DNA from: Thermoplasmatota archaeon
Lineage (GTDB): Archaea > Thermoplasmatota > Penumbrarchaeia > JASLWR01
Direction: 5' to 3'
Length of the DNA stretch: 64,000 nt
Assembly (NCBI GenBank): GCA_030740765.1
Contig: JASLWR010000008.1
Coordinates: 1-64,000 of the forward strand
A program made the position numbers and the translations under genes. The notes under the pieces were generated by a model. The model saw nothing but the letters and a program-made list of their open reading frames with translations. It made no database searches and was not told the origin of the DNA. Shown here piece after piece: positions 10,280 through 53,150 of the stretch (positions are counted from its first letter, which is position 1; each line of letters opens with the position of its first letter).

Positions 10280-10326
10280 TCTATTAGTTATTAAATAGTA
10301 TTGGAACGGTTATTTGAGATTATAAA

Positions 10327-10590
10327 AGTAATGAGGATCTTATGACATTTCTTGACAAGACGGAGGCTACTGGCCCGTCTTGAAAGTTTGACATGCCAAC
10401 AGGTGTGTCTTCACTTGACAAGTCACCACTTGTCCAGTGTGGCACGCCCGCAGGCATACAGGCCCGCGATTCTGCTCACATTGTCAAGCTGCAAACCTCG
10501 ATGTGTCTGCGACCCATCTATCCCTTTCGAGGCCTTACTCGAAAGGCTTCGACATTTTTATCGAACTTTGCACCTATGACAATATATAGC
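10327..10590 (-). repeat. Hairpin-dense intergenic element (copy A), possible structured RNA
   Basis: Perfect inverted repeats: 10356-10382 (CAAGACGG/CCGTCTTG), 10412-10439 (CACT-T-GACAAGT/ACTTGTC-C-AGTG), 10523-10546 (CCTTTCGAG/CTCGAAAGG), 10548-10565 (TTCGA/TCGAA). The reverse complement of the 10530-10590 end matches 52640-52700. Confidence 0.6.
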
Positions 10591-33180: not shown

Positions 33181-33276
33181 GCAGGTGTGATCTAGCCTGG
33201 TTAGGATTTGGGCCTTCCACGGTATAGCAAATACCGGAGAAAGCCTACTGCTCGGGTTCAAATCCCGACACCTGCA
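33181..33276 (+). tRNA. tRNA-Gly(TCC) with a 22-nt intron (33220-33241)
   Basis: Acceptor GCAGGTG/CACCTGC, D-stem ATCT/GGAT, anticodon stem TGGGC/GCCTA with loop CTTCCA|A, T-arm TCGGG-TTCAAAT-CCCGA. The intron CGGTATAGCAAATACCGGAGAA has stem CGGTAT/ATACCG and sits at canonical position 37/38. Confidence 0.92.
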
Positions 33277-33283
33277 TTTTTTT
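33277..33283 (+). terminator. T7 tract after the tRNA
   Basis: TTTTTTT directly after the discriminator base. Confidence 0.5.
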
Positions 33284-33545
33284 GACTGAAAGGAAAAAAA
33301 ATGAAGGGGTAGGCGGAACTTGTTTCCGCCGGAGCAGAGCGGGAACCTGCACTTTTTTTCGACTAGGGGGGGAAAAAAAGTGGAGGGGCAGCAGAGCCAG
33401 TATGGGTCTGCGTGCACCTGCATCTTTTTCTTTCAAAGGTATTGCGGAATCTACCAAGTAACACCCAGGTAGGCCAGGTGTACCATAGAGTACACCAAGA
33501 TATAATGGGCGCCTGAAAGGGTCTGCGAGCACCTGCATTTTTTAA
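33277..33545. repeat. Post-tRNA degenerate repeat region with recurring ACCTGCA + T-tract
   Basis: ACCTGCA at 33345, 33416 and 33531 (plus the tRNA 3' end at 33270), each followed by a T-rich tract; GGGTCTGCG[TA]GCACCTGCAT present twice; hairpins GGCGGAA/TTCCGCC and GGTGTAC/GTACACC. Confidence 0.6.
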
Positions 33546-33553
33546 ACAAAAAA

Positions 33554-36288: not shown

Positions 36289-39200
36289 ATGCTGAAGTGG
36301 ATAATTATTTTCTTGCTGCTGTCTCTCACCGGGACAGTCTTGGTCGTTCTCACCCCTGGTGGGAGCAGCGCCGAGGCGACCCGGAGTTCGTACGGAGTGG
36401 TCCTGAAGGTTATCGATCAGCCTTATTTTCCAAACGATGGAAAATGGACGGGGTTTTTGAACATAACAGTGACAAATACCTGCCCCGACAAATCCGATAC
36501 CTTCAGATTGGAGGCCACCCAAAAACCAGCAGGTTGGGATGTCATCGTCCTCGAACCGACCATCGATGTGGGTACCAGCCCTCCTACCGGACCGGAAAAG
36601 AGCACGACACTGCTGATCAGTTGTCCGAAGATGGAAAAGCAAGGAACATATCGGATTGCCATAAAAGGGACGAGCCAGGGTGACCCTGCTCAATATCACA
36701 GCATATATATTGACGTTGAAGTAATGCTTGTTCCTTTCGTAAATGTGGAGGGACCCATTAACGTGGAGGAGACAGATATAGATCCGGCAAACGGAATACC
36801 CGACTACCTTGAGGGTGACCCCGGTGACTACGTAACCTATGATTTCCAGATACGAAATGTAGGCAACGGTGAAGAGGCTTATTTCATATCGCTGGATTCA
36901 CCCAACAACTGGTGGCACGAGATTCAGGGACCATCCTTCACCCAGACCCTGAGCATTAACCAGACTGCGATTAAAAGAGTGAAAGTGAAGATCCCCGGCA
37001 ACGCTGAAATGGGCGATACAGATGTCCTCAAATTCATTGCAACTTCACAGGTTGACCCGAAATTGCATCATCTGGCCACCGTGGAGACAAGGGTAAAACA
37101 GATATTCAGTTTAGGCCTTGAGGCCCCCCTCTATTCCACATTCTCTTATCCCCACTCGGAGGTGGAGCTTGATTTCAATATCACGAATAAAGGGAACGGA
37201 GCCGATGATACCGCAAGGATGGAAATGAAGTCGATCTCCCCCGATTGGATATGGGAGTTTGATCTATCCAATATCGGCCCAAATGGAATTCCAAGATACG
37301 GGAAAGCACGATGCGTTCTATCGCTTGTCATACCCAAAACCTCTCTCAACAGGACCTATTCACTCACCATCGAAACCTATACCTCCCTGAAAAATGTCCC
37401 TGACGATTCCCTGACTCTCAATATTACCATATTTCAGGAGTTCGATCTCAACCTCAACCTCAGCACAAATACAGCAAAGGTTTTTCCAGGTGAGGAGATA
37501 TCATATAATTTCACGGTGGAGAATCCTGGTAACGGTGATGATAATTATAGTATCCAACTGCTAAAAGAAGGGGAAATTAACGTAACGTCGTGGTGTGAAC
37601 TCGATACCAGCTATGTAGAACTGGGTAACGATTTTTCCCACGAGATATTTTTTAATGTTCGTATACCGGAACTGAGCAAGGCGGGCATCTACGTTATCAG
37701 CGTACAGGTCATCTCAAACGGAGCCCGGAAGATGCAGCTCGTGGTTACAGAAACCATCAGTTTTTCCTTTGAAGTAATGAAACAGTACTCTCTCGAGATG
37801 ACAAAGCGGAAGGGAGATGAGCTTCTTTCCATCAACTCGGATGAGATCGATCCTGAGAAACGATTGGATGTGTTCCATTTCAACGTAAGCAATCTTGGAA
37901 ACGCCCAGGATATTGTGCTTTTTACAATCGACTATCCCGATATTGGAGGATGGAGCCCCCCCGATTTTATGATCTCGCAGGTTATGCTCCAATACAGGGA
38001 AACCCGTGGAAACCTGATATTGACGGTCCGAGCTCCATTTGGTATCGCCATAGGGGAATATCATTTCACCGTACAGGTGAGATCCACCCGGGACCCGTCA
38101 GAAAATCCTGCATCGGATTCAATTGATTTCTCCGTTAAGATAGTTCGTTTCGACATTGACGTGGATAAGATAATCTCACTGGATTCCCGTCTGGTGGATT
38201 CATCCGTGAACGTTAGCGATAGTGAGATCCACAGCATAGAGCTGAAGATATGGGTAAGGAACGTGGGAAATCTCGATATAGATCGATTCAACGTTTCCCT
38301 GTTTATCAATAACGATAGGATCGCTCCCTACAGGACACGTGAAATATTCGATTTCAAATCCGGTATGAAAAAGGAACTGACATTCGATTTCAGTCCAGCC
38401 ACCTACAGCACTTATCTTATTATCTTCCTCCTAGATCCCGACGGGACTATCTCTGAGATGAACGAATCCAACAATAGGGTTACTCTCACATATATTCTTA
38501 TAGAGCCCAGTGGCGATTACTTGTTCAGTGTGGATTTGGCGCAATGTGGTGGAATGAGTCCGGGCCCCGTGAGTGACGAGTTGAAAAATTGTTTTTCCGA
38601 GAATAATATTAACCTTTCCACAGGTGCAGTAATAAGTTCTTTGGAAGAAAACGAATGGAAAGTAACTGATGGGCCGACGGAATATCTTTTATCTGTAAAG
38701 GGAGGTGAAGTGGTGATATACCGTTTCGAGAAGGGTGCTGAGAGAAATGATTCACCATTATTGTTGATCATAGAAATCCTTGGTGCGATCATGACACTGG
38801 TAATAATCGCAGTCATTGTTATCAGGATAAACAGGGCCCGCCGAAAGGATCCGTTATTGGACACTGGGTTAGTTGAGGGCGAGGAATACAAGTTCCGGGA
38901 GAGGGGAATAAAGCCCGAATTTGATGGTTTGGAATTGGATGATTTCTTCGAAGGTATGGAGGAAGAGGAGAGCAAAAAGGATCAGAAAAAGGAAGATACG
39001 ATAAAGGACAAAGGAACCGGTTATTACGTAACCAGCCAGGATCAGCCTGGGTCTGAAAAACCCGACCTTGGATTCACCATCTATAAACCCCCGGCTGAGC
39101 TTACTGAGACAGCGGACTCTCAAGAAGCGGATCATAAAGACTGGGAAGAATATGGTACAACTACAGATTCTTACGAGGCCGATGAAGGGGAGTGGGAAGA

Positions 39201-40098
39201 ATATAGTGCGACTACAGATTCTTACGAGGCCGATGAAGGGGAGTGGGAAGAATATGGTGCGACTACAGATTCTTACAAGGCCGATGAAGAGGAGTGGGAA
39301 GAATATGGTGCGACTACAGATTCTTACGAGGCCGATGAAGGGGAGTGGGAAGAATATGATACAACTACTGACTCATACGAGGCCGATGAAGGGGAGTGGG
39401 AAGATTATAGTACTTTAGCCAACGTGGAAGAGAGCGTTGAGAGCGATCTATACTTGGATACTGAAAAGCTCCCGATATTTGGAGAAGCGCTTCCACTGGA
39501 TGAGGATATCATTGAGGAAGTATCGCTCGAACCAAAAATAACACTTGATATTCCCGAGACAAAGCAAAAGCTAATGCTCGAACCTAAGCCGAGAACCAAA
39601 GAAACTCAAAAAACTGATATGAAAAAACCACTTATGATGAAACCGGTTTCCGGGCCGGTGGTCTCCGGATCAACCGGAGAGAAAGAGAAACTTGATGATA
39701 TTTTCGGCATCATGACACCCGCCAAAAGAGAGAGAGGCATCAAAGATATAACGCCGGTGACGACAATTAGTGAGAAAAAAACAACCGGACCGATGTTGAC
39801 CGGTCCAGTAGTGCAAAGTGAATGCACTCCCGAGAGATCAAGGCAAGTGGGGCGGCCTATTATGAAACCACGGGACGAGTCGATACAAACGGCCCCAGTA
39901 GTGCAAAGAGAGCACACTACCGAAATATCAAAGCAGGTGGGGCGACCGATGATGAAACCGCAATCCAGCTCAAGAAGACCAATGATGAAACCCCGAACTT
40001 CCCCCCGGAGACCCACAATGAAACCCAAGGCCGACACGACTCCAGCGGAGATACCCGCAAACAAAAAAGAAAGGCCAAAGATGAAACCGATAAAATAA
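36289..40098 (+). CDS. Very large surface protein with NEW3/CARDB-like repeats, TM, acidic 17-aa tandem repeats and a basic MKP-repeat tail
   Basis: Signal peptide MLKWIIIFLLLSLTGTVLVVL; repeats (YNFTVENPGNGDDNY etc.); TM LLLIIEILGAIMTLVIIAVIVIRI; tail as described. Confidence 0.8.
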   Translation: MLKWIIIFLLLSLTGTVLVVLTPGGSSAEATRSSYGVVLKVIDQPYFPNDGKWTGFLNITVTNTCPDKSDTFRLEATQKPAGWDVIVLEPTIDVGTSPPTGPEKSTTLLISCPKMEKQGTYRIAIKGTSQGDPAQYHSIYIDVEVMLVPFVNVEGPINVEETDIDPANGIPDYLEGDPGDYVTYDFQIRNVGNGEEAYFISLDSPNNWWHEIQGPSFTQTLSINQTAIKRVKVKIPGNAEMGDTDVLKFIATSQVDPKLHHLATVETRVKQIFSLGLEAPLYSTFSYPHSEVELDFNITNKGNGADDTARMEMKSISPDWIWEFDLSNIGPNGIPRYGKARCVLSLVIPKTSLNRTYSLTIETYTSLKNVPDDSLTLNITIFQEFDLNLNLSTNTAKVFPGEEISYNFTVENPGNGDDNYSIQLLKEGEINVTSWCELDTSYVELGNDFSHEIFFNVRIPELSKAGIYVISVQVISNGARKMQLVVTETISFSFEVMKQYSLEMTKRKGDELLSINSDEIDPEKRLDVFHFNVSNLGNAQDIVLFTIDYPDIGGWSPPDFMISQVMLQYRETRGNLILTVRAPFGIAIGEYHFTVQVRSTRDPSENPASDSIDFSVKIVRFDIDVDKIISLDSRLVDSSVNVSDSEIHSIELKIWVRNVGNLDIDRFNVSLFINNDRIAPYRTREIFDFKSGMKKELTFDFSPATYSTYLIIFLLDPDGTISEMNESNNRVTLTYILIEPSGDYLFSVDLAQCGGMSPGPVSDELKNCFSENNINLSTGAVISSLEENEWKVTDGPTEYLLSVKGGEVVIYRFEKGAERNDSPLLLIIEILGAIMTLVIIAVIVIRINRARRKDPLLDTGLVEGEEYKFRERGIKPEFDGLELDDFFEGMEEEESKKDQKKEDTIKDKGTGYYVTSQDQPGSEKPDLGFTIYKPPAELTETADSQEADHKDWEEYGTTTDSYEADEGEWEEYSATTDSYEADEGEWEEYGATTDSYKADEEEWEEYGATTDSYEADEGEWEEYDTTTDSYEADEGEWEDYSTLANVEESVESDLYLDTEKLPIFGEALPLDEDIIEEVSLEPKITLDIPETKQKLMLEPKPRTKETQKTDMKKPLMMKPVSGPVVSGSTGEKEKLDDIFGIMTPAKRERGIKDITPVTTISEKKTTGPMLTGPVVQSECTPERSRQVGRPIMKPRDESIQTAPVVQREHTTEISKQVGRPMMKPQSSSRRPMMKPRTSPRRPTMKPKADTTPAEIPANKKERPKMKPIK
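39109..39414 (+). repeat. Six tandem 51-bp units encoding TTDSYEADEGEWEEYGA
   Basis: Units: TADSQEADHKDWEEYGT, TTDSYEADEGEWEEYSA, TTDSYEADEGEWEEYGA, TTDSYKADEEEWEEYGA, TTDSYEADEGEWEEYDT, TTDSYEADEGEWEDYST; 6 x 51 = 306 bp. Confidence 0.95.
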
Positions 40099-52639: not shown

Positions 52640-53070
52640 TTTTGGTATATATTGTCAATGGTGAAAATCTCGATAAAAAGTCGAGGCCTTTCGAGTAACG
52701 ATTTGACGATGCCCGTTGGCACTCCGCAAACTCCTTAGGACTTTGCTGCATCCTAGGCAAGTATGCCTACGGGTTCACGCCTCGGCAAATCCAGGCGTGT
52801 CTTCAAGGTAACGTCCTTGAAGGCGCAGCAGAGCTGTAGGGTCTGCGTAGTGCAACGGGAGCCTGTAGGTTTGCAAAGGAAATCGAAGGCTCAGCAATGC
52901 CCAAAGGGTATTGCGTAGCCTGACCGCACACTTGCGGGCAGGGATAGGAACATCTCTGATGTTTCAAGACGAAGTGGGAGCCTGTAGATTTCCAGAGGAA
53001 ATCGAAGGTTCAAGGGTATCTCTGATGCCCTGGAATGAAATGGGAGCCCGAAGGTCCGATTCCGCTGAAT
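52640..53070 (+). repeat. Hairpin-dense intergenic element (copy B), possible structured RNA
   Basis: Hairpins at 52669-52685, 52776-52799, 52801-52822, 52824-52847, 52894-52914, 52924-52937, 52949-52963, 52987-53003, 53014-53030. Internal repeats GGGAGCC(T/C)G(T/A)AG at 52857, 52976 and 53042. Confidence 0.65.
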
Positions 53071-53150
53071 ATAATTAATTCCAAATCCCTGTTAATAAAA
53101 TTGAAATAGACCCTATACTGGTATGAGAGAAAGAAAAGAAAAAAAGGAAA

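Follow-up and report, generated by a model that had tools for sequence, protein, structure and literature searches.

Probable palindromic non-autonomous mobile elements of a new family in an uncultured Thermoplasmatota archaeon

The genome of an uncultured Thermoplasmatota archaeon probably carries mobile elements of a new family, palindromic and non-autonomous, which combine an anatomy like that of PATEs and REPs with a use of genes like that of Rickettsia palindromic elements. The position of the host within the Thermoplasmatota was supported by a scan with a DRG-type GTPase, with protein identities of 50-55%. The family, named here family 1, is represented in the window (the whole 64,000-nucleotide stretch of one contig that was analyzed) by two loci sharing a sequence block, which an earlier note had interpreted as the conserved promoter or leader of structured RNAs. 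The shared block is probably the left end of a short, non-autonomous, palindrome-bearing mobile DNA element of the PATE/REP kind, which would move as single-stranded DNA.

The two loci of the window and their repeat families

The shared block lies at 10535-10588 (minus strand) and 52646-52698 (plus strand), with the bases and coordinates originally given. No inverted repeat between two loci of the window is stronger than this one, with 34 nt at 85% and a further 24 nt at 92%, and a chance match is excluded by its E value of 1.2e-10 (blastn, whole 3.59 Mb genome). The compensatory change of C-G to T-A in the closing pair of the hairpin is genuine: in 14 copies that pair was C-G in six, T-A in five and T-G in three, and the change is one among many compensatory changes in family 1. 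The family is not limited to the two members first noticed. A model of the first hairpin (R1) gave 74 distinct sites in the genome at E ≤ 0.01, to which BLAST added eight, i.e. about 82 copies, and BLAST with either window locus returned dozens of partial matches. Both ends are present in 71 distinct copies, and 59 of 71 copies are intergenic. A third copy on the same contig, at 71649-71717, lies beyond the window. The features of the window are as follows:

52649..52650, plus strand: dinucleotide AT, the target of copy A at its left junction; conservation of A 58/60 and of T 56/60
52651..53070, plus strand: family-1 copy A, 420 nt, left end ATTGTC..., right end ...CGATTCCGCTGAAT; boundaries taken from 60-71 complete copies
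10460..10583, minus strand: family-1 copy B, by direct reading; covariance-model match at 10463-10583 (minus), E = 2.2e-13
10352..10414, plus strand: unit 1 of a family-2 hairpin doublet, TTGACAAGACGG..CCGTCTTGAAAGTT plus TGACATGCCAACAGGTGTGTCTTCAC
10415..10459, plus strand: partial family-2 unit 2, TTGACAAGTCACCACTTGTCCAG plus TGGCACGCCCGCAGGCATAC, by direct reading and comparison

Copy A was matched by the covariance model at 52651-52727 (E = 4.4e-4) and folds strongly both as RNA (z = -8.3) and as DNA (z = -7.2). Its middle is absent, the GCGGAATCG arm expected to pair with the right end being missing, so it is interpreted as an internally recombined copy that keeps both termini. In copy B the 5′ hairpin ATTGTCATAGG...CTTGACAAT is complete, and of the 3′ hairpin the 5′ arm, GTGAGCAGAATCGC, is present; the copy has no right end and is joined to two family-2 units. 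Copy A would thus have lost its middle, and copy B would have lost its right end and become fused to the two units of the other family.

Concerning the sequence downstream of the block, the RNA folds of 10320-10572 (minus; z = -4.3) and 52664-53080 (plus; z = -8.3) surpassed every shuffle, in agreement with the dense hairpin arrays described for both loci. The downstream part of 10327-10590 belongs mainly to another element family and is not a diverged version of the sequence at 52.6 kb. Family 2 has related copies throughout the genome, ending in CTTTAC, CTTCAC or CTTTTC, and in the window no base separates its unit 2 from the TTCAC with which unit 1 ends. The tandem "hairpin array" of the window is explained by this arrangement, in which new family-2 units directly abut the end of the old one. 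The doublet, of the form TTGAAAAG..CTTGAAAG plus TGACACGCC..GGTGTGTCTTTAC, was seen at 10352-10459 (plus) of the window and at loci L045, L046, L054, L041 and L040; some family-2 copies lie within genes or at gene edges (ETF-alpha, Mur ligase-like and TatC-containing).

Three other features of the window were recorded separately. An in-frame 51-bp tandem repeat occurs six times at 39054-39461, within a large CARDB-type surface protein gene (36289-40098). A 96-nt tRNA match at 33181-33276 is long, possibly owing to an intron or a long variable arm, and after it three copies of CACCTGCATTTTTT are found at 33269-33552.

Anatomy of family 1 and a possible route of movement

Family-1 elements begin with ATTGTC, nearly always preceded by AT, and end in GCTGAAT or GCTTCAT; nearly all copies show the AT-ATTGTC junction and GAAT/TCAT-type ends. 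The compact form consists of the hairpin ATTGTCAA...TTGACAAT, GTTC, the hairpin GCGGAATCG...CGATTCCGC and T-GAAT. More generally, the four bases between the hairpins are mostly GTTC or GTGC, and the right terminus is T-GAAT or T-TCAT. There is thus a palindrome near each terminus, the left one beginning at base 1 with no sequence before it. The supposed leader is this left terminus, and the element to which it belongs has two hairpins, sharp boundaries and dispersed copies. Outside the element, where a conserved promoter had been suggested, only the dinucleotide AT is conserved (A in 58/60 copies, T in 56/60), and of the quoted TATATATTGTCA only AT followed by ATTGTC is common to the copies, the remainder being flanking DNA. 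Terminal inverted repeats are absent, since ATTGTC and ATTCAGC (the reverse complement of GCTGAAT) agree only in ATT.

The pairing of the hairpins was evaluated for 37 pairs over 14 copies, and 95% of 398 cells were paired. Double changes occurred at 11 pairs, compared with 4.4 ± 1.5 in shuffles (none of 500 as high), and when the partner was shifted by 1-3 columns pairing dropped to 29-44%. Base pairing of the family-1 hairpins is therefore selected. Five compact copies folded as single-stranded DNA gave z values from -4.7 to -8.3.

The tetranucleotide in front of the right hairpin and the final four bases of the element covary: GTTC is found with TGAAT and GTGC with TTCAT, while copies L128, L018 and those of genomes G001 and G007 have GCT or GCC with TTGAG-like ends. 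At the central position of this guide/end pairing, 60 copies showed T-A in 39 cases, G-C in 14 and mismatches in seven, counts that are not independent because the copies fall into subfamilies. In IS200/IS605 elements and some REPs, tetranucleotides located 5′ of a hairpin pick the cleavage site by pairing (PMC8266576). It is on account of the similar covariation of guide and end bases in family 1 that single-stranded DNA mobility is proposed, even if the covariation could be a mere extension of the terminal helix. The left end has no internal guide, unlike IS608, and there is no room for one inside the element because the left hairpin starts at base 1. The excess of G.T over A.C (24 to 12) is weak evidence of one active strand.

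It seems reasonable to envisage a trans-acting transposase that handles both excision and insertion, the element then being a folded single-stranded DNA. Insertions lie directly behind an AT dinucleotide, with a target duplication of at most AT, and the four bases before the right hairpin may act as the guide that chooses the right cleavage site, by analogy with IS200/IS605 elements and REPs. Long copies would come about as further hairpins are gained, exchanged and inserted into existing ones.

As to the enzyme, no transposase with family-1 ends was found. The host genome has four Y1 transposase matches, with no family-1 element in the flanks of these genes, and TnpB was not found in it. A resident IS200/IS605 element was considered as the parent and rejected, since the Y1 flanks differ, TnpB is absent and Y1 does not track the element: the carriers G001 and G007 have no Y1 match, and the Y1-rich genome G003 has no element. 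Among the remaining 5′-hairpin matches inspected, none was seen to enclose a gene as an autonomous copy would; they close within a few hundred bases, or are truncated or degenerate. Three IS200-type Y1 elements, L063-L065 (G000 C158:39095, C81:56529 and C55:41722), share a common AACTACCAGCCCCTAAAGGAGCTGGCGTTTT end, and two of them are truncated.

Copies range from compact ones of 93 nt or less to one of 716 nt, the long ones having grown through nested hairpins. In copies of at least 130 nt, GTA/GA made up 12 of 29 distinct 3x2 internal loops, more than any other sequence, and did not occur in shuffles; the inner stems within these loops are unrelated to each other. One insertion is common to three duplicated flanks: L089 (reverse complement, 1797-1955), L144 (1509-1668) and L145 (reverse complement). 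In these three copies two hairpin stems are wholly different, both arms of each having been replaced together between conserved GTA/GA borders; L144 is apparently a partial conversion. Such replacements leave some room for an unlikely variant of the mobile-element reading, namely that the elements form a new class, mobile as single strands and evolving by the exchange of whole hairpins, in which the moved cassette would be a palindrome and the mobilizing enzyme would not be a recognized Y1 transposase.

Evidence for mobility and alternative explanations

The clearest trace of insertion is an empty site. The sequence around copy L029 is repeated at L020, where the element is absent. The flanks of both agree at 74/79 positions across the junction of CACAGAAT and TATTAAATTC, and the difference between them is exactly the 93-nt element, with no target duplication beyond AT, a dinucleotide that also ends the element. 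Similarly, L071 has a nearby paralogue without the element, with a 1-nt gap near the junction. The sequence that supplies the empty site for L029 is a third dispersed repeat, GCCACTGAAGCACAGAAT...AATTCTTTTCTGTG, present at L020, L023, L029, L132 and L221 and frequently linked to 3′ modules of family 1.

In-gene copies are in frame, free of stops and located in conserved genes. At L015 the element codes for residues 443-517 of a glycerate kinase. Its solved relative 2b8n aligns with this kinase in two pieces (44-431 to 39-381 and 527-559 to 392-424), ten residues of 2b8n separating the parts that match either side of the element, and the Pfam MOFRL domain is divided into two stretches. Insertions of 31 codons occur at L074, L087, L100 and L103. 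Besides the kinase, the host proteins include a DUF4143 ATPase, a TPR protein and a TraB-like protein, the last with the copy close to its end. The copies lie on either strand of their host genes, and splicing is ruled out as an explanation because the host gene is in some cases on the strand opposite to the element. Long copies with stops are located outside genes. The reading of stop-containing copies as introns was discarded, since the "interrupted" frames were 5′ extensions upstream of start codons.

The distribution is patchy. Elements were found in three of 14 genomes of the class (the host and two of 13 others), all of the compared genomes being draft MAGs, some incomplete, with the host genome 94% complete. 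They were not found in the 11 other class genomes, and those three are the only matching genomes among 297 sampled from the phylum. The two other carriers, G001 and G007, are related to each other and belong to another family of the class; their copies are diverged, with the same architecture and unrelated flanking sequence. Exact-pattern scans of named genomes and viral contigs gave no matches. As judged from these comparisons of sequence, i.e. the empty site, the in-frame gene copies and the patchy distribution, family 1 appears to be mobile.

The interpretation of the earlier note, a structured regulatory or non-coding RNA family with a conserved promoter or leader, now appears very improbable. 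Its structural part stands, as the family is conserved and covarying and has further copies in the host genome and in two other class genomes. The strong RNA folds and covarying helices would suit an RNA, and the recurrent GTA/GA loop of the 3′ modules resembles the core of the bulged-G (loop E) RNA motif. This loop is indecisive between RNA and DNA, however, because tandem sheared G.A pairs form in DNA too. An RNA function is not sustained by the other data: there was no Rfam match, even at an E value of 5, no promoter is conserved outside the element, in-gene insertions occur on both strands, and the diverged copies of the two other class genomes have unrelated flanks. Although 29 copies have a same-strand gene start at most 200 nt downstream, gene starts only downstream on the same strand numbered 24, versus 15 only upstream on the other strand, a difference that is not significant (p = 0.20). 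A crude count of 34 versus 12 had given an impression of leader-like orientation bias, which fell to these figures with stricter gene calls. As for the association with surface-protein genes, it holds for both window copies, but elsewhere the neighbors, read by eye, are mixed (NadA, triosephosphate isomerase, Lon, phosphofructokinase, acyl carrier protein, tRNAs and others). Genes of this type abound in the genome, and the link within the window appears to be coincidental.

A classical MITE, mobilized by a DDE transposase acting on terminal inverted repeats, is likewise highly unlikely. Family 1 is small, multicopy and non-coding, with some gene insertions in frame, as a MITE might be, but its ends are not inverted repeats (ATTGTC versus ATTCAGC), the target duplication is at most 2 bp and there is a palindrome at each end. 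Finally, an RNA-level element (a ribozyme intron or retro-element, reverse-spliced or reverse transcribed into DNA) would account for the highly structured sequence and the precise insertion without evident target duplication, but is hardly credible given that in-gene copies are in frame and stop-free, which an intron does not need, that stop-bearing long copies lie outside genes, that copies antisense to genes are unable to splice, and that the host genome has no reverse transcriptase and reverse transcriptases do not track the element.

Family 1 among known palindromic elements

Bacteria and haloarchaea are well-known hosts of palindromic non-autonomous elements. In the literature, no description of family 1 and no report of such elements for Thermoplasmatota were found. 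Family 1 preserves intermediates that are usually lost, namely compact two-hairpin copies, stepwise hairpin growth, the exchange of hairpins within a shared insertion, ends of three types that each have a matching guide, and core metabolic genes that have taken up a copy in frame. It thereby offers a handle for finding its mobilizing enzyme.

The Helitron or IS91-type rolling-circle elements have an AT target, no target duplication, a hairpin near the 3′ end and termini TC...CTRR. Family 1 resembles them in the AT target, in a target duplication of at most AT and in the hairpin near the 3′ end, but its termini are not TC...CTRR and it has a 5′ hairpin. The PATEs of Haloquadratum walsbyi have palindromes related to resident IS605-type transposons (PMC3119063). 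Like PATEs, which show no evident target duplication, family 1 has no terminal inverted repeats and has palindromes near both ends; it is too short for a transposase, has many copies and is targeted by other elements. Its empty site shows no duplication beyond the AT that also ends the element. Unlike PATEs, it grows via nested hairpins to 716 nt and has nothing before the left palindrome. No resident IS605-type element with family-1 ends was found in the host genome, which is 94% complete, and because this tested link is lacking, family 1 is not classed as a strict PATE.

With the REP/BIME sequences and their TnpA-REP (RAYT) enzymes, the likeness lies in short high-copy palindromes in doublets and in a tetranucleotide at the hairpin foot that could select the cleavage site (PMC8266576). 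The foot is, however, GTTC or GTGC instead of GTAG, no RAYT is associated, and family 1 is also found inside genes and reaches a much larger maximal size. Like Rickettsia palindromic elements, which are short palindromes lying in frame in conserved protein genes and adding reading frame (PMC10969869), family 1 has in-frame, stop-free copies within conserved genes. This is a likeness of behavior only, with no homology claimed, as the sequence, the host domain and the ends are different and most family-1 copies are intergenic.
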